A stretch of 64,000 nt of DNA, from NCBI RefSeq assembly GCF_004365655.1, contig NZ_SOEO01000001.1, forward strand, positions 310,001 through 374,000. The letters are read 5' to 3'. Positions 829-11,460 of this stretch are shown in pieces. This DNA is from Epilithonimonas xixisoli. GTDB taxonomy: Bacteria > Bacteroidota > Bacteroidia > Flavobacteriales > Weeksellaceae. The notes beneath the pieces were generated by a model, which had not been told where the DNA came from, ran no database searches, and saw only the letters and a program-made list of their open reading frames with translations. The position numbers were made by a program, and so were the translations under genes. Position 1 is the first letter of the stretch; each line of letters begins with the position of its first letter.

Positions 829-1254
829 TTAGTTATAGGATATTTGCTCATTAATAAAACCATCCACCAATCGCTTTGCAAAAGTCAAATCCTTTTGAGC
901 GTTCAGAAACGCATTGTAAAGGCTGTCCAATCTCGCAGGCGGAATATTGTTGAAATTCTTTTCTTTCGAAGCTCTGCAAGCGATGCCTTTCACATAGTCG
1001 ATGGAAACTTGTTTGTTGGCGAGCTTGAACGTTCCGAAGATGGAAGCAATCAGGCGTTTTCTTTTTTTATCGACATCGTTCTGATGTTTCTGCTGTTCGT
1101 TCTGGAGAAACGTGCAAAGGCTGTCCAGTTCTATTGCATTTAGGTCACGGGCGGACGATTTTCTCCCGTTGGTAAATTGAGCGATGATTCCCGCTCTTTC
1201 TTCCACAAGACCTTCTTTTGATAGTAAGGTCATTAATTTTTTGATTGTTGCCAT
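829..1254 (-). CDS. Phage protein, possibly GemA-like (DUF1018)
   Basis: A 141-residue protein. Its N-terminus (MATIKKLMTLLSKEGLVEERAGIIAQFTNGR then SARDL) and a later segment with KRKRLIASIFGTF and a YVKGIACR region resemble the layout of GemA/DUF1018 proteins of Mu-like phages. The match is by pattern only and is weak. In Mu, GemA modulates host DNA supercoiling and gene expression. The position in the middle of the early operon is right for GemA. It could equally be an unrelated phage hypothetical protein. Confidence 0.45.
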   Translation of the reverse strand: MATIKKLMTLLSKEGLVEERAGIIAQFTNGRKSSARDLNAIELDSLCTFLQNEQQKHQNDVDKKRKRLIASIFGTFKLANKQVSIDYVKGIACRASKEKNFNNIPPARLDSLYNAFLNAQKDLTFAKRLVDGFINEQISYN

Positions 1255-1264
1255 ATTTCTGATT

Positions 1265-1918
1265 TTAGTTTAGTAATTTTCCTTTACTAAGATTGTCTAT
1301 AAAATGATTTGAATCTTTGCCGAAAAATTCATTAACCTTAATTATCATAGCCTCTAATCCAGTTACTACATTTATAAAGAAATTGTGAGTTTCCTCAGTG
1401 TAAGGTATCTTTTGATAATCATAATATCCTTGACGTCCATCTTCTCTTGTCATCTGTGGTCCACCTAGCCTAATTCCAGATTCTGGCCGTTTGCTGGCTT
1501 CGTAATTAGCTGGGCTTATAAAAGTTTCATCACCGATTTTAATACGCCATAGAACGTGGAATTCCAATCCTAATGCTGTGTTTGGTGCGAATGAAATATC
1601 ACTGGTTTCTTTTGAGTTTGATTTAATTTTGTAAGCTATTATCCTTTCTTCAGTTATACATTGGTCATAATATTCTGAGAATACTTTAATTGCCAAATTT
1701 TTACATTCGTCATAAGATTTACCTGTAATATTACCTTGATACATAATAGAAGCATAAGAAGGCTGTTCTCTAGTTAGCTTTGCACCATACCAATCTTTGA
1801 TTTCTTCCGGAAAATCAACAGCTGTAAAAAGCTTTGTTTTTGTGTAAAAATTGATTGTAACAAAAAACTCTTTTCCCGAGCCTTTGTGGGTAATTCTTTC
1901 TGTTCCTACTTTTGCCAT
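1265..1918 (-). CDS. Prophage hypothetical protein, 217 aa
   Basis: I do not recognise this family. The preferred start is the ATG at 1918 (MAKVGTERITHKG). An upstream ATG at 1972 would add 18 residues but lies inside the tRNA-like element at 1930-1979, whose sequence is better explained as RNA structure. The protein is soluble, with no signal peptide and no obvious catalytic motif. A central stretch (SFAPNTALGLEFHVLWRIK) is followed by a glycine-rich segment GIRLGGPQ. Confidence 0.7.
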   Translation of the reverse strand: MAKVGTERITHKGSGKEFFVTINFYTKTKLFTAVDFPEEIKDWYGAKLTREQPSYASIMYQGNITGKSYDECKNLAIKVFSEYYDQCITEERIIAYKIKSNSKETSDISFAPNTALGLEFHVLWRIKIGDETFISPANYEASKRPESGIRLGGPQMTREDGRQGYYDYQKIPYTEETHNFFINVVTGLEAMIIKVNEFFGKDSNHFIDNLSKGKLLN

Positions 1919-1929
1919 AATTTTGATTT

Positions 1930-1979
1930 TTAATTTGCTCCAATCGGAGGAATCGAACCTCCGAGAAACCATTTTGGAT
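1930..1979 (-). ncRNA. tRNA acceptor/T-arm-like structured element 1
   Basis: On the minus strand these 50 nt can fold into an outer stem (TCCAA with TTGGA), a 10-nt bulge on the 5' strand, and a 6-bp inner stem (CGGAGG with CCTCCG) closed by the canonical T-loop TTCGATT. The 3' strand gives the 12-position acceptor-plus-T-stem length of a tRNA, with one A-A mismatch. There is no D arm or anticodon arm and no upstream partner for a full cloverleaf. It lies 8 nt after the stop of a 39-residue ORF and 11 nt before the ATG of the 217-aa gene. The element at 7501-7550 aligns without gaps and covaries with it. Confidence 0.65.
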
Positions 1980-1987
1980 GTTTTTTT

Positions 1988-2107
1988 TTAATTCTCCTTG
2001 TTATCTTCTAAAATCCTTGTAGATGTGTAATTTCCCACGATGTTGCCAAGGCAAAAACCGCCAAAGAATAATACAGAACCAACTGTGACGACTAATAATA
2101 TTTCCAT
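1988..2107 (-). CDS. Small single-helix membrane protein
   Basis: A 39-residue ORF. Residues 3-22 form one hydrophobic helix (ILLVVTVGSVLFFGGFCLG), followed by a polar tail ending LEDNKEN. It sits directly downstream of the DUF3164 gene in the leftward operon and ends just before tRNA-like element 1. No function can be assigned. Confidence 0.45.
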   Translation of the reverse strand: MEILLVVTVGSVLFFGGFCLGNIVGNYTSTRILEDNKEN

Positions 2108-2109
2108 AT

Positions 2110-2775
2110 CTAATCAATTGAAAATTTGAAATTAACACGCTTCACAATGTTGTCTCCAAAATCTACCAGCTTGTAACCTCTCACGTAGCGTGAGGTTCTG
2201 ATGTCAATCATAGCCTCGTTGATGATATCCATTGCGGAAGAGAAAACATCGCTGTTGGCTTCCGCTCTGAGTGCATCCAGCGCTCTCACGGCTTTTGGAT
2301 TGTAATCTCCTTTGCTGTCGGTTTTCAAAGCGATGTTGAGGAACTTCATCAGCAATTTTTCATTTTCCGTATTGCCAGCCAGAGAAGACATAAACTCTTT
2401 AAGCTGATTGATGCCGTGCGACTCTGTGCCGTTGAACGTTGGACTCACATTCCAACCGACTTGCATATAGGCAGAACCATCTTCCAAGGTGTGCGAGTAG
2501 CTGTCTTGCTCTGCCTTTTTGTCGCCGTACAAAGCGGAATCTAATTCGATGACGCTTTGCAGGTCTTGGAACATCTTGACGATGCGGTCTTCCACATCAT
2601 TTCTTTTGTCGATGAAGAAATCCACGTTTGCCAGAACAAAGTCGTTTTTGAGACCTTTTAGGATTTTCTTATCGTTGGCGATTTTTTCTTTCTCGAGTTT
2701 TTCCTCGTCTTTCAGTTGTTGTGCAAGTGCTTTCTTTTGTTCTGGTGAAAGTTCTGCGATTGAGATTGTTGTCAT
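2110..2775 (-). CDS. DUF3164 family phage protein
   Basis: A 221-residue protein. The N-terminal third is a charged, probably coiled-coil region (about residues 9-50, many K and E). The C-terminal third shows the DUF3164 pattern: TDSKGDYNPKAVRALDALR, then a helix, then RTSRYVRGYKL near residues 195-205. DUF3164 is widespread in the early region of Mu-like prophages, usually near the transposase genes, and its function is not known. The family assignment is by eye. Confidence 0.7.
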   Translation of the reverse strand: MTTISIAELSPEQKKALAQQLKDEEKLEKEKIANDKKILKGLKNDFVLANVDFFIDKRNDVEDRIVKMFQDLQSVIELDSALYGDKKAEQDSYSHTLEDGSAYMQVGWNVSPTFNGTESHGINQLKEFMSSLAGNTENEKLLMKFLNIALKTDSKGDYNPKAVRALDALRAEANSDVFSSAMDIINEAMIDIRTSRYVRGYKLVDFGDNIVKRVNFKFSID

Positions 2776-2782
2776 TTTATTT

Positions 2783-2926
2783 TTATTTTTGAGTTAAATA
2801 TTTTTTATACCATCTTACGGCTGATGCGCGATTGTCTGTCCAGCATTTGAAACCATCTTCTGTGCGCCATTCTCCGTGCATTCCTTCTTGTGGTCTTACT
2901 GTGAATACGTATTTCTCGTTGCTCAT
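2783..2926 (-). CDS. Small prophage hypothetical protein, 47 aa
   Basis: Encodes MSNEKYVFTVRPQEG and continues to YKKYLTQK. The ATG overlaps the stop of the preceding ORF (ATGA). A compact W/R-rich middle (EWRTEDGFKCWTDNRASAV) gives it protein-like composition. Function unknown. Confidence 0.5.
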   Translation of the reverse strand: MSNEKYVFTVRPQEGMHGEWRTEDGFKCWTDNRASAVRWYKKYLTQK

Positions 2927-3093
2927 AGTGCGTTATTTGTAATTGTTAAATTTTTGAGTTGGTTTTGTCGGAAGAGAAGTTCGTCGTGGATTTTTATCCA
3001 CTCTTCTTGGTAACTGTCATCTTCCAGTCTAGCTTTGAGACCTGCGATGATATCTTCTAGCTCTTTTTCGGTTGGTGGAAACATTTCGCTCAT
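2923..3093 (-). CDS. Small prophage hypothetical protein, 56 aa
   Basis: Starts MSEMFPPTEKELEDIIAGLKARL and is mostly acidic and helical, probably one long helix or coiled coil. It is coupled on both sides: its ATG overlaps the stop of the 68-aa ORF (TAATG) and its stop overlaps the next start (ATGA). Overlaps of this kind through the whole cluster support real translation. Function unknown. Confidence 0.5.
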   Translation of the reverse strand: MSEMFPPTEKELEDIIAGLKARLEDDSYQEEWIKIHDELLFRQNQLKNLTITNNAL

Positions 3094-3299
3094 TAATTCA
3101 ATTTTTGTTGTTGATTCAGTTTTGCGTTTATCTCACATTTCTTTCTATGTTCATAACCGTCATTGAATTTTCCGTCCATTTCATCTTTAATTAACATTTC
3201 TGCCTTTTTGTAAGCTTTGATTGTTTCACTGACTAATGGACTTGGCCCTAATGATGTTATAGTTTTGACGATTTCGTCTAATAATTCTGATGCTGTCAT
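3093..3299 (-). CDS. Small prophage hypothetical protein, 68 aa
   Basis: Sequence MTASELLDEIVKTITSLGP onward, helical and charged, with no recognisable motif. It lies 3 nt after the 73-aa ORF and overlaps the next gene by one base, so it is part of the same tightly packed early operon. Confidence 0.5.
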   Translation of the reverse strand: MTASELLDEIVKTITSLGPSPLVSETIKAYKKAEMLIKDEMDGKFNDGYEHRKKCEINAKLNQQQKLN

Positions 3300-3302
3300 T
3301 TT

Positions 3303-3524
3303 TTAATAGGGACACTCCCAGTTGTATTTGTTGATGTAATTAAGTTTGATTTCAATCTTTTCTTCTACATAATCAGCAAGCTTATAAGGCCTGTTGTTGA
3401 GTAGTGCGCTACGCTCTTGCTGGATGAACATCCGGTCAAAGTCCGTGAGGTACTTTTCGCCGTAGCTGTCGTACTGTAGAGCCTTGGTAAGCTCAATGAA
3501 TCTGTCGCTTTGTGTATCTGTCAT
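3303..3524 (-). CDS. Small prophage hypothetical protein, 73 aa
   Basis: Begins MTDTQSDRFIELTKALQYDSYGE and ends NKYNWECPY. No motif is recognised. It follows the P-loop ATPase by 5 nt and precedes the 68-aa ORF by 3 nt. Confidence 0.5.
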   Translation of the reverse strand: MTDTQSDRFIELTKALQYDSYGEKYLTDFDRMFIQQERSALLNNRPYKLADYVEEKIEIKLNYINKYNWECPY

Positions 3525-3529
3525 AAGTT

Positions 3530-4159
3530 TTATTGTAATTTGGCGTAATAATTTGCAGACCGTTCGGCATCTATGATGAACTCTTCGCCACCGCCGAACC
3601 TCGATTCTGGAAAAGCTTTGAAACCAACTACTTTTATTTTCACATCTGCATCAAACTTGATGTCTTCTGCGAGTGAGCCTTTTGGTTCGCCACTCTTGTC
3701 GGCTTGGCTGATGAAAATCCAAAGTTTGTTTCGAAACCGCTCTCTCAACTCTTCAAAAGACTTTTTGTTGAGTTTGGCATATTGCAGACTGTCAATCATT
3801 ATAATTTCCGGACTGCGTTGTTTTTCCAACCTTTCGAAAACTTTTTCCATCGGCACCCGATTGCCAAAGAGAACTTTATCTTTCACAGTAGCTATTCCGG
3901 AGCGGTCAACATTCATCTGGAAAGATTTTGTTTTGCCCTCTTCCAGTGAGTTGATGAGTACTTTGTTTTTGACAAATCCCGTGAGATACTTTGCCAACTG
4001 CATCATAAAAGATGATTTCCCGTTGTACGATTTCCCGTAGATGATCCAAACGCCTCGCGCTTCCGGCTTTCCAAACGATGCTTCCCATTTGCCATCAAAG
4101 TCAAAATCTTTGAACTTGGTACTTTCCAGCTCTTCGACTGAGAAAAAATCGTTCGCCAT
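3530..4159 (-). CDS. Phage RecA-like P-loop ATPase
   Basis: A 209-residue ATPase. Walker A is GKSYNGKSS at residues 42-50, and Walker B with flanking serine is PEIIMIDSLQ near 117-126, followed by a sensor-like WIFISQADKSG. This is the RecA/DnaB-like (AAA_25) core with no extra N-terminal domain, so it may be a phage replication or recombination ATPase. The start at 4159 is chosen because it falls one base after the preceding stop; an upstream ATG would overlap the HNH gene by 38 nt. Confidence 0.7.
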   Translation of the reverse strand: MANDFFSVEELESTKFKDFDFDGKWEASFGKPEARGVWIIYGKSYNGKSSFMMQLAKYLTGFVKNKVLINSLEEGKTKSFQMNVDRSGIATVKDKVLFGNRVPMEKVFERLEKQRSPEIIMIDSLQYAKLNKKSFEELRERFRNKLWIFISQADKSGEPKGSLAEDIKFDADVKIKVVGFKAFPESRFGGGEEFIIDAERSANYYAKLQ

Positions 4160-4160
4160 A

Positions 4161-4592
4161 TTACTTCTCTTCTTTTTTTCTAAGATTGAAAATGGCATTT
4201 CTGCTGACGCCGTATTCTCTTGCTATTTCTGAGTCACTTATCCCAGCTTCTATCTTTGTCAAAACTTGAGCTCTTTGCGTTGGGTTTAGTTTTGCCGGAT
4301 TCTTTGAATTTCCTCCATTTGCGCCCCATTGAAGGTTAGAGTAGTGGTAGTTCTTGTAGTCGCCATCTATGTGCTTTGCGCTTAGTTTAGGCGTTGGTGG
4401 CATTCCGTTCCAGCATTCCATTACTAATCTTGCTAATCCAATTTGCTGACCTTTGAAAATCCAAAATTTGAAAGGGTTGTTTCCACTTTTTCTGATTTTA
4501 ATCTCAACAGGACTTTCATTGAGAAGGACTTGAGAACCATCTTCGTTAACTTTCAAACCTTCTATTTCTGGGTGATATCTAAATTTTTTCAT
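4161..4592 (-). CDS. HNH endonuclease with C-terminal helix-turn-helix
   Basis: A 143-residue protein. The motif LARLVMECWNG, then KHIDGDYKNYHYSNLQWG (residues 73-90), has the histidine-aspartate-asparagine pattern of phage HNH endonucleases. Residues 116-139 (GISDSEIAREYGVSRNAIFNL) form a resolvase-like helix-turn-helix. Such proteins are often homing endonucleases that insert between phage genes. The ATG overlaps the stop of the MuB-like gene (TAATG). Confidence 0.7.
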   Translation of the reverse strand: MKKFRYHPEIEGLKVNEDGSQVLLNESPVEIKIRKSGNNPFKFWIFKGQQIGLARLVMECWNGMPPTPKLSAKHIDGDYKNYHYSNLQWGANGGNSKNPAKLNPTQRAQVLTKIEAGISDSEIAREYGVSRNAIFNLRKKEEK

Positions 4593-5449
4593 TAGGCAAT
4601 CATTTTTTTTGTTTCATCTTCCAAAATTTCCTCAATTAAATCTCTCACGATTCTGAAATCACCTCGTGATTTCCGTGAGATATCTTCAATTGTTTCAGAA
4701 TCGGTAATACCTTGTGTTTCACACATAATTCTCACGTCTTTTGCTGTGGTTTGCTCAAACTCGTAATATCTTCCGAATCTTGATTTTATTTCGTTATATC
4801 CTTTTTTTTGAAGCCTCACGCCGTCATTAATTCTTTTTACCAAATAGTTGGTCGCAAGAATCACTATTGAACATTTTTTAAAAAGTTTGTTGTAAAATGT
4901 GATGAGATATGCCAAAACTTTATCATCTACTTTATCAATCTCATCAATGATGATTTGCGGATCTTCCAGTTTTAGAATATTATCAAAAATCTCTTCCAAC
5001 ATATAAGCAGGCTTTTGGCTATTGCTCACAATATTCATCTGTTGAAGGATAGAATTAAGGAAGAAATATGGGTCCCAATATTGTCCACATTCGATGCGAA
5101 AAGTATTCTCATTTTCTTCTGTAAATTTCTTTGTAATCTCAGATTTTCCACTTCCAGCAGGTGCAATGATTGTCATCAGTTTTGATGAATCTTTTGCGTT
5201 TTCCAATTGCTCCAGAAGTCTTTCAGAATTGCTGGTGTTTGCGAATTTCCACTCCAAAGAGTTGTGTCCAACCTGCGCTCCGATTTTTCTGAAAATATCA
5301 TCAGAATATGGACTCCAATTGCCACTTAGCAAGTGTGATACAACAGCAGACGAAACTTTTAAAGCGGTTGAGGCTTTATTTTGACTGCCTTTTTTTGTTA
5401 CAAATTTTCTGAGTAGCTCAACGATGGTTATTTTTTCATTCTGTTCCAT
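4592..5449 (-). CDS. MuB-like AAA ATPase, transposition target activator
   Basis: A 285-residue ATPase directly downstream of the transposase (2 nt gap). Residues 20-45 form a helix-turn-helix (NKASTALKVSSAVVSHLLSG), as in Mu B. Walker A is APAGSGKS at 96-103 and Walker B is IIIDEID at 166-172. In Mu, MuB binds DNA in an ATP-dependent way, delivers target DNA to the transpososome and confers target immunity. The order transposase then ATPase is diagnostic of this system. Confidence 0.88.
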   Translation of the reverse strand: MEQNEKITIVELLRKFVTKKGSQNKASTALKVSSAVVSHLLSGNWSPYSDDIFRKIGAQVGHNSLEWKFANTSNSERLLEQLENAKDSSKLMTIIAPAGSGKSEITKKFTEENENTFRIECGQYWDPYFFLNSILQQMNIVSNSQKPAYMLEEIFDNILKLEDPQIIIDEIDKVDDKVLAYLITFYNKLFKKCSIVILATNYLVKRINDGVRLQKKGYNEIKSRFGRYYEFEQTTAKDVRIMCETQGITDSETIEDISRKSRGDFRIVRDLIEEILEDETKKMIA

Positions 5450-5451
5450 AT

Positions 5452-7476
5452 TTACATTATTTTGATAGTTTCTAATTTTGATTTTCTATTTGTCTTGATT
5501 TGCTCTTCCTTAGTGCCGTAGGCTACCATTTTCGCTTCTAATTCCCAGTTGTCCACAATCATTGCGTTTTGCTCATCTACTAAGGATTCTCGTGTAATTC
5601 CTGTGCGTTCTGCGATTTCTTGATACTTTGTCCAGTCTCGCATCATTTCTCGGTCTCGGACTTCCAAATCTTTAAGCATCTGCGCTTTGTTGTCTTCGGT
5701 GGAGAATTTCATCATCTGGCTGTGTTCTCGTTTTTTCTGGGCGTAAGCGACAAACACTTTCTGTCCTTTTTCGTTCAGTTCATAGAGTTTCACGTACTGG
5801 TCGAGATATTCTGGGTCGTAGGCGACAATCAATTTGGTGTTGACATACTTCTGTCTGAAAACTTCATCAATTTGATTGTCGTTGTCGTAAACTTCGAAAT
5901 CGTAATCCGTTCCGGAAACCGTCAGTTTCATTCCTTCTTTCTTGTAGAGCTTCGGTTTGGTTTCATCCAGCCAGAACATTGAGATTTGTTCGAATGCGTC
6001 GAGTTCCTGTGTGTGCTCGGTCTGGGTGGCGAAAACTTCGTTTCTGGATTTGTTGAAACGTGGGTGTTTCATCGCATTCCACTCGTTGACCATTACGATA
6101 AAGTGTTTGTATAGCTCATCTTTAGTCGGAAGTGCATCTTTAAATTCCTTAATGAAATCAATATTGACTTGTGAGCGACTTTGCTTAGCTTTTATCGACT
6201 GTTTGTCCGAGAACCAACGTTTGCCAATGACTTGCTGTTGAAAGCGGTTAAAAACCTGCTCTATTGGGTTTGATTTTCTGCCGACTTTATGGTGATAATG
6301 CGAATTGGCCACTTTGCTGTACAACTCTTGCATTTTCTTGGTTCTGTGACCCGACTGCGCATCATAAGTGAATAAGTAAGGTTTTGCACAAGCGGTGTTC
6401 ACTGCCATTTTCAAAGCTTTGAAGTGGTCCACGTGCGTCTCAGATTCCGAAAGACTCCAACCAAGAATTTTCTCTGAGTAAACATCGATTACTACATCGA
6501 TATTCATATCAGCGCCCATTTTGTTGCTGTTGTCCTTCACGTGGATGGTGTCGAGCTTGGTGCCGTCAATCGCCCAGTGTGCGTTCGGGAATAGAGTCTC
6601 TTTGTTTTTCTTGATGGTGTGGCCAAATCGATTGATGTAAGCATCTTTGCCATCACGTGGACGAAGCCAAATCCTTTCGTTTTCCGGTTTCATAATGAAA
6701 TTTTGAATGCCACTTTCTGAAAGCCTTGGAAAGCCTGTAACCGAGCGTTTATGTTCGTAAGCTGTGAAAAGCTCTGGAATTGAACATTTAATCGGCAGAG
6801 AGTAGTAAGCAATCAGCCATTCGCCAACTTCTTGCGAGATTTTCAGACTGTGATTGTTACAATAGTTGTTATGAATCAATCCTTCCAGTCCGGTTCTTGG
6901 ATAACGCTTGTTTCCTTTTTTCAAAATGCAAGCTTCAAACTTCGCCCGAAGTGCCTGTGGATTTTCAGGAAGGTCAAATGGATATCGGAATCTCAGATCA
7001 TCGCTGATGTTGTGAACCGACTCTGTTATATTCTGCCAAAGTTCCGCTTTGTTGATTTTCGGATTTGCGTTCGTTACTTTCACGATCACTTTATTGATAG
7101 CATTAAAGACAACCACGTTGGCTGTGTACTGCTCAACTGCATCGCTGTTGGCTTCTGACAGATAACGTCCATCTTCAAGTTCGTAATTGGCGAAATAGGC
7201 GGAAGCGTGTTTATCCGAGGCGAGAAACTCAGAAAAATGAATCGTGCTTTTTTGTTCGTGTGGATTGATGCCCAAATCGTGCTCTATCACGTTTTTGAAA
7301 CGCTCTGGGATAGAGTTGTAAACATACAGTGCAGAATTGCCAAGACCACCGCCGTTGCGCGCTTTCTTTATTTTGCCTTTACTTGCCAATTGCTTCAAGT
7401 TGTTGAAAGAGATAACGCCTTTCTCATTGAGCCAGTTCGCTTGCACGCATAAAGTGTTGTTGTAGTATTCAAACAT
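5452..7476 (-). CDS. Mu-like DDE transposase (MuA family)
   Basis: A 674-residue transposase. The N-terminus (about 1-60) is a Mu-type DNA-binding region. The RNase H-like catalytic core carries D304 (WAIDGTK), D372 (TYDAQSG) and E406 (NPIEQVF). A basic linker and C-terminal region of about 200 residues follow, where MuA has its MuB-contact domain. It would catalyse strand transfer during integration and replicative transposition. A perfect dyad (7477-7495) touches the start codon, suggesting repressor or transposase control, and tRNA-like element 2 lies just upstream of that. Confidence 0.93.
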   Translation of the reverse strand: MFEYYNNTLCVQANWLNEKGVISFNNLKQLASKGKIKKARNGGGLGNSALYVYNSIPERFKNVIEHDLGINPHEQKSTIHFSEFLASDKHASAYFANYELEDGRYLSEANSDAVEQYTANVVVFNAINKVIVKVTNANPKINKAELWQNITESVHNISDDLRFRYPFDLPENPQALRAKFEACILKKGNKRYPRTGLEGLIHNNYCNNHSLKISQEVGEWLIAYYSLPIKCSIPELFTAYEHKRSVTGFPRLSESGIQNFIMKPENERIWLRPRDGKDAYINRFGHTIKKNKETLFPNAHWAIDGTKLDTIHVKDNSNKMGADMNIDVVIDVYSEKILGWSLSESETHVDHFKALKMAVNTACAKPYLFTYDAQSGHRTKKMQELYSKVANSHYHHKVGRKSNPIEQVFNRFQQQVIGKRWFSDKQSIKAKQSRSQVNIDFIKEFKDALPTKDELYKHFIVMVNEWNAMKHPRFNKSRNEVFATQTEHTQELDAFEQISMFWLDETKPKLYKKEGMKLTVSGTDYDFEVYDNDNQIDEVFRQKYVNTKLIVAYDPEYLDQYVKLYELNEKGQKVFVAYAQKKREHSQMMKFSTEDNKAQMLKDLEVRDREMMRDWTKYQEIAERTGITRESLVDEQNAMIVDNWELEAKMVAYGTKEEQIKTNRKSKLETIKIM

Positions 7477-7495
7477 ATTTAAACGGTGTTTAAAT
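7477..7495. promoter_or_regulatory. Perfect dyad at the transposase start
   Basis: ATTTAAAC-GGT-GTTTAAAT is an inverted repeat with 8-bp arms and a 3-bp centre, directly against the ATG of the transposase. A related dyad, TTTAAAAC-G-GTTTTAAA, lies at 9130-9146. The shared half-site TTTAAAnC-G suggests one protein binds both. Candidates are the phage transposase or a Ner/Cro-type regulator. This is inference from sequence only. Confidence 0.5.
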
Positions 7496-7500
7496 GGTTG

Positions 7501-7550
7501 TTAATTTGTTCCCAAGAGCGGAATCGAACCGCTCAAGAACCGTTTGGGAT
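7501..7550 (-). ncRNA. tRNA acceptor/T-arm-like structured element 2
   Basis: On the minus strand these 50 nt form a 6-bp outer stem (TCCCAA with TTGGGA), a 9-nt bulge, and a 6-bp inner stem (GAGCGG with CCGCTC) with the T-loop TTCGATT: 12 bp in total, the geometry of a tRNA acceptor/T-arm minihelix. It aligns with element 1 over all 50 nt, with compensatory changes in at least four pairs, and shares the 3' flank CAAATTAA. It begins at the stop codon of a 41-residue ORF and ends 24 nt before the transposase ATG. Confidence 0.65.
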
Positions 7551-7675
7551 TATTTTTTTTCTTCGAAGACAAGGCAAATACCTGTTCCCGACCTTTTCAT
7601 TGAAACAAGACCATTATCAATGTGCTTTTTCAATTCCGCTACTGATATTTCAGTGTTCACAATCTTTTTTTTCAT
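7550..7675 (-). CDS. Small prophage hypothetical protein, 41 aa
   Basis: Reads MKKKIVNTEISVAELKKHID and continues to CLVFEEKK. The composition is protein-like and the ORF ends exactly where tRNA-like element 2 begins. It lies between the HTH-like early gene and the transposase. Function unknown. Confidence 0.45.
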   Translation of the reverse strand: MKKKIVNTEISVAELKKHIDNGLVSMKRSGTGICLVFEEKK

Positions 7676-8190: not shown

Positions 8191-8901
8191 ATGAGGAATA
8201 TAGTAGAGAAACTCAAGGAATATCTTGACTTTAAAAATATTGAAATAGCCGTTGCTGAAAGGGAATTAGGCGTATCAAACGCAAGTCTAAGCAAGCCTTT
8301 TAAAGCGAATACCAATATTAAAACTACTACGTTAGAAAAATTTCTATCCACATATAAAGATTTGAATCCGCTTTGGGTCCTTGACGAATCACCTAATATG
8401 TTGAGAAAAGGAAATAGCGGTCAGATTAATGAATCTCTACACGTTTACGAGACCAAAAAGACAAAAGAAGCGATCATCGGATTGCAGGAAGTTCCTTTTT
8501 ATGACTTGGAAGCAACCGCAGGCCTGCAAGAGCTTTTCGACAGCGGAAAACCTCACAAAGTTCTGGACACCATCAAAATTCCCAATTTACCAAGGTGCGA
8601 CGGTGCAATTTCCGTAACCGGTGACAGTATGTACCCACTTTTGAAGTCTGGTGATATTATTTTATACAAAGAAACCTCTGTCCAGAATATTTTCTATGGA
8701 GAAATGTACTTAGTAAGCGTAAAATCCGATGACTGGGAGGAATATATCACAGTCAAATTTGTTCAGAAATCGGAAAAAGGAGAAGATTTTGTGAAATTGG
8801 TAAGTCAAAATCAACACCATCAGTCAAAAGACATCAATATTGGTCATATCTCCGCCATTGCGATGGTAAAAGCAAGCATTAGATACAATACGATGTTTTA
8901 A
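8191..8901 (+). CDS. Phage repressor, HTH plus LexA-type S24 peptidase
   Basis: A 236-residue repressor. The N-terminal helix-turn-helix spans about residues 16-50 (IAVAERELGVSNASLSKPF). The C-terminal S24 domain has the nucleophile S146 in TGDSMYP and the general base K189 in ITVKF. A candidate self-cleavage bond is A110-G111 in EATAGL. Such repressors hold lysogeny and cleave themselves on RecA filaments after DNA damage, so the prophage is probably SOS-inducible. It is divergent from the early operon with two operators in the 97-nt gap. Confidence 0.9.
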   Translation: MRNIVEKLKEYLDFKNIEIAVAERELGVSNASLSKPFKANTNIKTTTLEKFLSTYKDLNPLWVLDESPNMLRKGNSGQINESLHVYETKKTKEAIIGLQEVPFYDLEATAGLQELFDSGKPHKVLDTIKIPNLPRCDGAISVTGDSMYPLLKSGDIILYKETSVQNIFYGEMYLVSVKSDDWEEYITVKFVQKSEKGEDFVKLVSQNQHHQSKDINIGHISAIAMVKASIRYNTMF

Positions 8902-9402: not shown

Positions 9403-10527
9403 CCCTAGTTATATCTCAAAGATACTCAAAATTGAAAGCAATTCACAACAAAAATTAATAAAGTCGCAAGATTAAAATTGATGTGTTATATCTCAAAGAT
9501 ACTCAAAATTGAAAGCAATTCACAACAAAAATTAATAAAGTCGCAAGATTAAAATTGATGTGTTATATCTCAAAGATACTCAAAATTGAAAGCAATTCAC
9601 AACTAGGAAACAAGACTTTGCGTGACGTATTAGGATGTGTTATATCTCAAAGATACTCAAAATTGAAAGCAATTCACAACGTCGTTTGGAATACGGTAAA
9701 GATTTATCTTGATGTGTTATATCTCAAAGATACTCAAAATTGAAAGCAATTCACAACGTTCGCGAGACATTGTAATCATTTTGAAAAGATGTGTTATATC
9801 TCAAAGATACTCAAAATTGAAAGCAATTCACAACAAACCAATACTTTGTTCTAATGTAATATTAGATGTGTTATATCTCAAAGATACTCAAAATTGAAAG
9901 CAATTCACAACTAGACGAATCAACAGAATTGATATTGGTATGATGTGTTATATCTCAAAGATACTCAAAATTGAAAGCAATTCACAACTTCTGGCCGTGT
10001 TTGATTCCGTTTTTTTTCGATGTGTTATATCTCAAAGATACTCAAAATTGAAAGCAATTCACAACGACGACTACAAAACGAAGATTTCAAACTTAGATGT
10101 GTTATATCTCAAAGATACTCAAAATTGAAAGCAATTCACAACATCTCCAAAAGTGAGAGAATCTTGAACATCGCTGTGTAATATCTCAAAGATACTCAAA
10201 ATTGAAAGCAATTCACAACGTTTTCTGACTTGATGGGAAGCCATACAGCGCTGTGTAATATCTCAAAGATACTCAAAATTGAAAGCAATTCACAACAAAG
10301 AAGAACTGATGCAAAAAAAGCCGGTTGCTGTGTAATATCTCAAAGATACTCAAAATTGAAAGCAATTCACAACATCTGCTTTATCTGGTAATTCTACGCT
10401 TGAGCTGTGTAATATCTCAAAGATACTCAAAATTGAAAGCAATTCACAACGTGATGTATGCACCGGAGAAAATACTTGTTGCTGTGTAATATCTCAAAGA
10501 TACTCAAAATTGAAAGTAAGTCACAAC
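9403..10527 (-). CRISPR. CRISPR array, 15 repeats of 47 bp and 14 spacers of 30 bp, type II-C-like
   Basis: Repeats start every 77 bases from 9403 to 10481. On the minus strand each repeat starts GTTGTGAATTGCTTTC, as type II repeats commonly start with GTTG. Long repeats of 46-47 bp with 30-bp spacers are known from flavobacterial II-C systems. Repeats 2-10 and 11-15 differ at two positions (GATGTGTTAT versus GCTGTGTAAT on the plus strand). Repeat 1 keeps only its last 42 bases and repeat 15 has two changes. Spacers 1 and 2 are identical. Each repeat contains TTG, 21 nt, TATCTTTG on the minus strand, a Bacteroidetes promoter match. No cas gene is in the window. Strand is inferred. Confidence 0.95.
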
Positions 10528-10548
10528 ATCCTCAAAAGAATAATATTA

Positions 10549-11460
10549 TTATCCCTCCAATCCAATCACCACAGGAAAATGGTCACTATACCCACCGATG
10601 AACCTTGACCCAGAATAAGTGCGAAAAGGATACTTGCCATTTTTATTGTCTTTGTTTCGGAGTCGGGGAGTGGTGTAGATTTCTGCACGGATATTTTTCA
10701 CATTAAATCTTTCTTTAAGCGTTTTCTCGGTGAAAATAATCTGATCAAAAACCATCCCTTGTTTGTCGTGAAATGTAGAAAATTGATTTTTTTGAAACAT
10801 TTCTTCGAAAGGATTGATTAACAATTGATTGTGCATTTTGTCGAAACATATTTTTTTAATAGCTTCGGAATCAGGGTTTTCATTAAAATCGCCCATCAAG
10901 ACAATCGGTTCTCCTTTATCAAAAAGCGGCTCAAGTGTTTCCTTAAGTTTTTGAAAGATAAAATATCGTTGCTCTTTTTTGCTATCCCGATTCCTTTGGG
11001 AAGGCAGATGAAGAACAAAAACTTGAAACGTCTTACCGTCGGAGGATAGTTCTACTTGCAGAATATCTCGGGTGTGGTATTCCGAATTCTCACCCAGTGG
11101 AAATCGCAAGGTTTTGAAACTTAAAACAGAAAATTTCTCTTTATCATACAACATCGCTACGCTAAGTCCTCGCGAATCATTGGATTTTTCATAAATAATG
11201 CCGTATGAATGGAGTGGTGAGTTTTCATCGGTCAAATCTTCCAATACAGATTTCGACCCAATTTCGGCTAACCCGATGATGGAAGGCAACTGCCCATGAT
11301 CTTCCTCAACAAATCGAAAGGCATTGGTGATTTTACGGATTTTTTGCTTGTACTTGTAGGCATCCCAGTTGCGGAGACCGGTAATAACATTGTCTGGAGA
11401 ATCAGAATCGGGTGGAAAGAGATTTTCCACATTGTAAAACATCAGAAGTTTGGTACTCAT
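10549..11460 (-). CDS. Endonuclease/exonuclease/phosphatase family protein
   Basis: A 303-residue cytoplasmic protein of the DNase I-like fold. Visible motifs are FYNVENLF at the start, GLAEIGS with the metal-binding glutamate (about 64-70), VLHLPSQ, GDFNENPDS (catalytic Asp and Asn, about 196-204) and the C-terminal YSDHFPVV with the active-site DH pair. Members hydrolyse phosphodiesters in nucleic acids, lipids or nucleotides; the substrate here is unknown. It ends 21 nt from the CRISPR array and lies just downstream of corA. Confidence 0.85.
   Translation of the reverse strand: MSTKLLMFYNVENLFPPDSDSPDNVITGLRNWDAYKYKQKIRKITNAFRFVEEDHGQLPSIIGLAEIGSKSVLEDLTDENSPLHSYGIIYEKSNDSRGLSVAMLYDKEKFSVLSFKTLRFPLGENSEYHTRDILQVELSSDGKTFQVFVLHLPSQRNRDSKKEQRYFIFQKLKETLEPLFDKGEPIVLMGDFNENPDSEAIKKICFDKMHNQLLINPFEEMFQKNQFSTFHDKQGMVFDQIIFTEKTLKERFNVKNIRAEIYTTPRLRNKDNKNGKYPFRTYSGSRFIGGYSDHFPVVIGLEG

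Follow-up and report, generated by a model that had tools for sequence, protein, structure and literature searches.

Short tRNA-Like Elements before Early Genes of Mu-Like Prophages in the Bacteroidota: Candidate Substrates of tRNA-Maturation Enzymes

Introduction

What might two short hairpins, alike in shape and different in their paired bases, be doing between the early genes of a prophage? The question arises from 64 kilobases (kb) of the Epilithonimonas xixisoli genome, the whole stretch analyzed and here called the window. An earlier note, made from the sequence alone, had likened elements at 1930–1979 and 7501–7550 (E1 and E2 below) to the joined acceptor and T arms of a transfer RNA (tRNA), and had offered processing by tRNA-maturation enzymes, translational control by tRNA mimicry, or binding of a phage protein as hypotheses. 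The setting is the early region of a Mu-like prophage, with an rve transposase, an AAA ATPase, a DUF3164 gene, and a divergent S24 repressor. Mimicry of tRNA by the elements is well supported by sequence comparison, and comparative data strongly support the proposed acceptor-plus-T-arm shape, which is that of a minimal RNase P or RNase Z substrate. Processing by tRNA-maturation enzymes appears, as we infer, the best of the hypotheses offered: we see about an even chance that these are portable phage "t-elements," tRNA mimics at which host RNase P and/or RNase Z cleave early messenger RNA (mRNA).

E1 and E2 Resemble the Top Half of a tRNA

Both elements occupy the minus strand and can be aligned gap-free, as first described, and the four double changes named at the outset are present: C-G to G-C, G-C to A-T, and A-T to C-G in the inner stem, and A-T to C-G in the outer stem. 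The helix of E2 has the 12 base pairs (bp) reported; for E1 the description is corrected here, as its helix likewise has 12 bp, split into 5 outer and 7 inner pairs. Judged from their sequences, E1 and E2 are tRNA top halves of 40 nucleotides (nt), in which a 9-nt bulge replaces the D and anticodon arms. The features are as follows, with nt 1–72 in tRNA numbering.

7510..7549, minus strand: element E2 (nt 1–72), from sequence, fold, and covariance model (73.9 bits); 6-bp outer (acceptor) stem, 9-nt bulge ACGGTTCTT, 6-bp T stem, T-loop TTCGATT.
7506..7509, minus strand: 3' tail of E2, ACAA, of the form N-C-A-A and identical to host pre-tRNA 3' ends.
1939..1978, minus strand: element E1 (nt 1–72), from sequence, scanner, and covariance model (68.1 bits); 5-bp outer stem, 9-nt bulge, 7-bp T stem, T-loop TTCGATT.
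1935..1938, minus strand: 3' tail of E1, GCAA, again N-C-A-A as in host pre-tRNA 3' ends.

In full, E2 reads TCCCAA-ACGGTTCTT-GAGCGG-TTCGATT-CCGCTC-TTGGGA-ACAA. A 12-bp coaxial acceptor/T stem, the pair G53-C61, and a 7-nt T-loop TTCRANY, which together characterize a tRNA top half, are found in both elements; some relatives have 11 bp or different loops. Folding of the single sequences is only moderately unusual (z of −2.1 for E1 and −3.0 for E2), so that the case for the elements rests on comparison; the minimum-energy fold of E1 prefers a different outer helix.

Comparison sets them clearly apart from background. A generic scanner for T-loop, T stem, and acceptor gave 56 distinct matches in 546 kb of loci, most of them chosen because they bear an element, versus 1, 1, 2, 2, and 2 in five dinucleotide shuffles. 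When candidates were chosen by sequence anchors, with pairing not required, there were 58, both stems being present in 39; the reversed sequence gave 7 and 0.

Known types of element were considered and set aside. An ordinary tRNA gene was rejected, as ARAGORN, which looks for a cloverleaf, calls no tRNA in the 64-kb window. A known RNA family was also rejected: Rfam has zero matches in the window at gathering thresholds, and at relaxed thresholds around E2 the best is a 17-nt piece of cyano_tmRNA (E-value 0.063; 13.1 bits, gathering 70). A DNA operator or mobile palindrome is not preferred, given that loop and bulge are invariant, the stems covary, and the orientation tracks the gene.

Distribution of Further Copies

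A pattern derived from E1 and E2 found 10 stretches in IMG/VR, several contigs carrying two or three copies, and the alignment A3 and covariance model R1 were built from 15 copies. In the genome of origin R1 recovers E1 and E2 strongly and one weak third match (L013, E 0.039, lacking a T arm); a host-wide element was rejected on this basis. At E 0.01 R1 matched 17 of 148 genomes of the same family, one of them through L029, a real tRNA-Leu and not a mini element, and 6 of 296 genomes of the order sample, namely three of the same family (including the genome of origin), one good match in another family (L044), and two false ones. At E 0.001 the genome of origin was the single match among 395 genomes of the phylum sample. 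The matches L013, L045, and L046 were judged false, as the T arm is absent from the sequence. R1 is narrow; a wider family of elements emerged through patterns and transposase searches.

Defining a mini element (mini) as one with a middle part of at most 12 nt, the pattern and transposase searches yielded 74 distinct copies from 124 sources, mostly in Mu-like phages of the Bacteroidota. These counts exclude the host tRNA loci L047–L076, L112, and L137–L180 (L148, L156, L157, and L159 are kept), for which the pattern scan matched mostly contigs with ordinary tRNAs, as well as L029; with the excluded tRNA loci put back there are 94 contexts, the tail being present in 85 and a downstream open reading frame (ORF) in 77. 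The same tRNA loci, with the same four exceptions, were left out of the covariation tests on 39 and 35 copies described below. The maximum in a single phage is four minis plus one long tRNA-like form (L181). In L009 a copy lies after a portal gene (phrog_6547), on a 98-kb contig that may belong to a crAss-like phage. Named relatives of the transposase include those of Kaistella, Chryseobacterium, and Soonwooa, Kaistella belonging to the Weeksellaceae. The earlier note had proposed a covariance-model search and had tied its claim to covarying copies in related prophages: Rfam gave no match at gathering, further copies were found in such prophages, and their T stems covary.

Covariation and tRNA-Specific Details

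It should be noted that the shuffle statistics on covariation ignore the relatedness of the copies. In A3, 93.4% of cells are paired, with 16 both-side changes versus a shuffled mean of 4.8 (0 of 500 shuffles). The number of pairs with a double change (4 vs. 2.8; 76 of 500) and of further pair types (5 vs. 4.6; 267 of 500) lies within the shuffles, and the innermost outer pair is formed in only 3 of 14. For the tests of single stems, candidates were taken by sequence anchors alone (T-loop TTCRANY, GG at nt 9–10, tail NC[AT]A). The T stem gave the clearest signal, in 39 copies selected by acceptor pairing only: pairing was found at 53-61 in 39/39 (shuffled mean 38.1), 52-62 in 37/39 (31.7), 51-63 in 34/39 (15.2), 50-64 in 35/39 (21.1), 49-65 in 35/39 (15.7), and 48-66 in 33/39 (15.8), with all four Watson-Crick pairs used at 51-63 and 49-65.

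In an earlier run with 43 distinct combinations the acceptor pair 5-68 alone passed the shuffles (36 vs. at most 30), and nt 1-72 is T-A in 63 of the 74 minis, T-G in 4, A-T in 2, C-G in 2, and unpaired in 3. Acceptor changes occur in L038, L182, L183, L188, and L193, and are seen singly, as with TTCCGC/GCGGAA in L193 and AGCGGTG/CGCCGCT in L038.

Agreement in the T-loop among scanner-found copies arises by construction, as the scanner requires TTCRANY. A GG within nt 6–17, the position of the D-loop, is found in 74/74 minis; in another hit set the bulge contains GG in 46/46, including one piece of a real tRNA (L029), where chance would give 0.28. In tRNA, residues 18 and 19 of the D-loop dock on the T-loop, as described in passages of PMC4810234. 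At the MuA site the two copies without a T-loop, L091 and L092, have no GG either, though these are just two cases. The tail NC[AT]A follows 71 of the 74 minis, mostly as ACAA (50) or GCAA (16), against a chance of 0.036. Among host tRNA genes inspected by eye (38 rows from 30 loci out of 47 matches), CCA is not encoded in 34/38 and the sequence continues as N-C-A-A in 25/38. As host tRNA genes mostly lack CCA and continue in this way, the tail of the element copies the 3' end of a host pre-tRNA. Outside the window, the E. xixisoli genome has a dense cluster of tRNA matches, some low-scoring, at C1:1280687–1282520.

That the elements are functionless, decaying fragments of phage tRNA genes would fit the near-intact forms in some phages and the lack of any in others; the strong T-stem covariation, the GG in 74/74, and the tail in 71/74 show instead that the top half is under selection, and we regard decay as very unlikely.

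Position Relative to Genes

The genes around the two elements are listed here.

7550..7675, minus strand: tiny ORF of 41 amino acids (aa), ending with the stop codon TAA at 7550, immediately before E2 nt 1, where RNase P is predicted to cut.
5452..7476, minus strand: MuA-type transposase gene of 674 aa, downstream of E2, with its start codon 33 nt past nt 72.
1988..2107, minus strand: tiny ORF of 39 aa, hydrophobic, ending shortly upstream of E1.
1265..1918, minus strand: gene of 217 aa, downstream of E1.
4592..5449, minus strand: MuB-type AAA ATPase (context).
8191..8901, plus strand: divergent S24-type repressor (context), marking the early promoter region.

The product of 5452..7476 has a Pfam rve match under the cut-off and relatives annotated as MuA or transposase; the 217-aa product has no Pfam or PHROG match.

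A sense ORF starts 3–69 nt past nt 72 in 70 of the 74 minis (median 22), and in 48 of the 74 a sense ORF of at least 30 codons ends no more than 40 nt upstream. In 14 of these 48 the last base of the stop codon is the one immediately before nt 1, the commonest offset (the next, −1, has 5). Location at gene ends and in sense orientation, as expected of a t-element, is thus seen as an ORF start within 80 nt in 70/74 and as an abutting stop in 14/48. The initial claim that each element has a tiny ORF on one side and a larger gene on the other extends to many copies, those 48; it does not extend to L088, L090, L092, L095, and L102, where the preceding gene, by eye, is apparently on the opposite strand and the element lies in the early 5' leader.

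These positions bear on three other explanations. A host factor that reads the elbow or T arm, such as TruB or the CCA-adding enzyme, might bind the mRNA without cutting it and so control the translation or stability of the next gene; this would agree with a median of 22 nt to the start codon and with the many enzymes that read the elbow (passages of PMC4810234), but it does not obviously require a pre-tRNA tail RC[AT]A or a stop at the exact 5' edge, and we consider it unlikely, if the most serious of the rivals. Released, CCA-tailed mini tRNAs might act as decoys that titrate host enzymes or acceptor-directed defense toxins. Plant t-elements are CCA-tailed and not aminoacylated, as parts of PMC11658184 describe, so that such RNAs can persist, yet decoys have no need of recurrent placement right before start codons, and the idea is a shade less probable than decay. 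Lastly, on the plus strand both elements are hairpins followed by T runs, as in an antisense terminator; a terminator scan calls neither E1 nor E2, the 14 nt upstream contain at least six A in only 5 of the 74 copies, and we find this explanation scarcely credible.

Some further features of these regions deserve mention. The tiny ORF preceding an element often encodes a short hydrophobic, membrane-like peptide (1988–2107 in the window; L002, L004, L010, L019, L022, L024). An in-frame AUG within E1 (1916–1972, minus strand) would extend the 217-aa gene to 235 aa; in most other copies ACGG stands at this position. The leader between E2 and MuA (about 7477–7500, minus strand) contains an inverted repeat, CATTTAAACACCGTTTAAAT, which is retained in the element-free L080. 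Adjoining the repressor end of the prophage, a 15-copy array at 9408–10562 has a 77-nt spacing, with a conserved repeat of 42–47 nt and variable stretches, and looks like a CRISPR array.

Different tRNA-Like Forms Occupy the Same Gene Sites

At the MuA site of near relatives there is a mini in L038, L039, and L040, a divergent form in L041/L088, and in L042 a near-full tRNA-like form, which ARAGORN calls tRNA-Val and Rfam scores at 30.8 bits (gathering 29). Upstream of an MKKFRK-type gene, at loci mostly chosen for their elements, 6 of 7 distinct regions have a tRNA-like form (L024 has none): L193 carries a TTCCGC mini, L039 a near-full form (ARAGORN tRNA-Ala, Rfam 39 bits), and the other four have TCCCA-type minis. 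At the MAT[LI]KKLMTLL gene the mini is of the AGCGGTG type in L038 and of the TCCCAT type in L042; the gene's counterpart in the window (829–1254) has no mini. As differing tRNA-like shapes at one site share the top half, the top half would be the working part.

A survey of 65 MuA loci, picked by their transposase and not for bearing an element, and forming 33 clusters at 90% identity (L128 was dropped, its start being unclear), found a canonical tRNA-like form in sense within 700 nt upstream of MuA in 16/33 clusters and within 40 nt of the chosen start in 11/33, counts that stand without a shuffle control. Eight hankyphage-type loci have it 453–455 nt upstream of MuA; in the hankyphage record BK010646 it spans 1767–1850. 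Five Porphyromonas phages have it 16–18 nt before the chosen start, with the caveats that the 5' strand of L131 is doubtful and that the annotated coding sequence of L129 starts further upstream; L111 scores 45.4 bits with the Rfam tRNA model. The Elizabethkingia phage TCUEAP3 has a mini directly upstream of MuA and a 54-nt form upstream of another gene; the first 12 kb of the Winogradskyella phage Peternella_1 contain no tRNA-like form. Hankyphages and Porphyromonas phages appear, from modeled folds, to carry long forms with abnormal anticodon arms: among six hankyphage-type forms folded (L110, L115–L118, L120), L116, L117, and L118 have a predicted CTCCC-GCAA-GGGAG tetraloop arm at the position of the anticodon loop, and the other three have odd predicted loops. 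ARAGORN nevertheless calls L110 a tRNA-Arg.

The swaps also bear on a phage protein that would bind the element as an operator or antitermination-like RNA site, its tRNA likeness being a scaffold. Most copies keep the sequence of the outer stem, UCCC..GGGA, and of the bulge, phages carry multiple copies, and copies without a T-loop occur, all of which would suit such a protein; other acceptor sequences (L038, L182, L183, L193) and near-full tRNA-likes at the same gene sites would not, and we judge it improbable, more so than binding by a host factor.

Other tRNA-like or structured stretches were seen at these loci. In L037 a longer tRNA-like form (1432–1498; GGCAAT..ATTGCC, T-loop TTCAACT) has a mini directly after it, giving tandem tRNA-likes. 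Between the tRNA-like form and MuA, L101, L106, and L042 have several stem-loops of the type N-GGAAAGAC-N without an Rfam match, possibly another phage RNA. On contigs without a detected MuA, L138, L147, L180, and L145 have tRNA-likes that ARAGORN leaves uncalled and that end 3 nt before an ATG.

Discussion

We propose that the RNA mimics a host precursor tRNA in its top half, with acceptor and T stem and T-loop, and that the GG bulge would be a shrunken D-loop docking on the T-loop to form the tRNA elbow. Cleavage by host RNase P would fall at the 5' edge of the element, and cleavage by host RNase Z and/or exonucleases at the 3' edge, around RCAA. The element would thereby act as a portable cut site that divides the following gene from a small ORF or leader upstream: the RNase P cut would free an upstream mRNA terminating in its stop codon, and the RNase Z cut would leave the transposase and other mRNAs with a 5' leader that is short and defined. 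We infer the cleavage and the enzyme responsible for it, as well as the elbow contact and the effect on expression. The combination of a host-type tail and a stop codon at the cut point favors end-processing enzymes. An RNase Z gene is present in the host (321.6 bits, cut-off 292.95); known readers of the elbow include RNase P, RNase Z, the CCA-adding enzyme, and TruB (passages of PMC4810234), and substrates of RNase P include model hairpins, mRNAs, and phage RNAs (passages of PMC12710915). The broader statement, that in transposable phages across the Bacteroidota and in at least one other large phage 40-nt elbow-folding RNAs recruit host RNase P or RNase Z to sever phage mRNA past a stop codon and ahead of the gene that follows, we hold tentatively, at somewhat less than an even chance.

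Several observations weigh against cleavage at a tRNA-like elbow. At the MuA site an 8-nt T-loop, [AT]TTCGACA, is found in L088, L102, L103, and L107, and L121 has TTCGGTG; L091 and L092 retain stems and tail and lack the T-loop. RNase P prefers CCA, and minis carry CAA or CTA in its place, as do host pre-tRNAs. In the reverse of the T-stem test, acceptor pairs form in 17–25 of 35 copies selected by T stem versus means of 14.5–21.5, none beyond the largest shuffle, probably because long tRNA-likes are mis-anchored and UCC..GGA is conserved; this outer-stem sequence is more conserved than a pure ruler requires. With the scanner, 17/33 clusters lack a canonical tRNA-like form within 700 nt of MuA: among these, L091 has the stems without a T-loop and L121 the TTCGGTG form, L080 and L083 offer just 158 and 203 nt upstream, and the start is uncertain in L123, L126, and L127. 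L080, whose transposase is 72% identical, has no element before MuA, suggesting from its sequence that the element is dispensable, and copies in a 5' leader need no gene separation.

None of the titles and abstract beginnings listed by searches of open-access literature describes such elements in phages of bacteria, which is weak evidence of absence; in the main text of the hankyphage paper PMC12135933, which includes RNA-seq of the induced phage, "tRNA" occurs 0 times, and a passage of PMC10367356 mentions tRNA as an insertion site. If the proposal is true, bacterial viruses use tRNA-maturation enzymes in shaping early mRNAs of their own, and the elements are an unannotated phage RNA family with many examples, natural 40-nt substrates that define the minimal needs of RNase P and RNase Z, among the smallest natural tRNA mimics bearing an elbow, and the equivalent in bacteria of mitochondrial t-elements. 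A "phage tRNA gene" need not be a decoding tRNA, and the ARAGORN call in hankyphage p00 may be a case in point.

Punctuation of messages by tRNAs is known from organelles. In plant mitochondria, t-elements are tRNA-like structures at gene ends, where cuts by RNase P and RNase Z define mRNA ends; like the phage elements they lie at gene ends, do not encode CCA, and do not decode (passages of PMC11658184). The phage elements differ in that they occur in bacterial viruses, are mostly 40 nt long without D stem and anticodon arm, and are often several per phage; cleavage is shown for plants, whereas for the phages it would be expected from the comparisons above. By analogy they would act like t-elements, membership of the class hinging on cleavage.

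Synthetic minimal RNase P substrates of the pATSer type consist of an acceptor and a T stem-loop, and share with the phage elements the absence of the other arms. Such hairpins serve as a model substrate of RNase P (passages of PMC12710915). The phage elements, in contrast, occur naturally and are conserved; they have a GG bulge, and RCAA in place of RCCA. With phage-encoded tRNA genes they share the T arm and acceptor, and some members score as tRNA with Rfam or ARAGORN; minis, however, have no anticodon, and the anticodon arms of several long forms are predicted to fold abnormally. Mimicry of tRNA is also known from the tandem tRNA-like 3' ends of plant viruses and from MALAT1-type RNAs, where, as would be the case here, tRNA enzymes are recruited to a long RNA. 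For long noncoding RNA, such mimicry recruits RNase P (passages of PMC4810234). The phage elements differ from these in lying between or before genes, in having a bacterial host, and in being much smaller.

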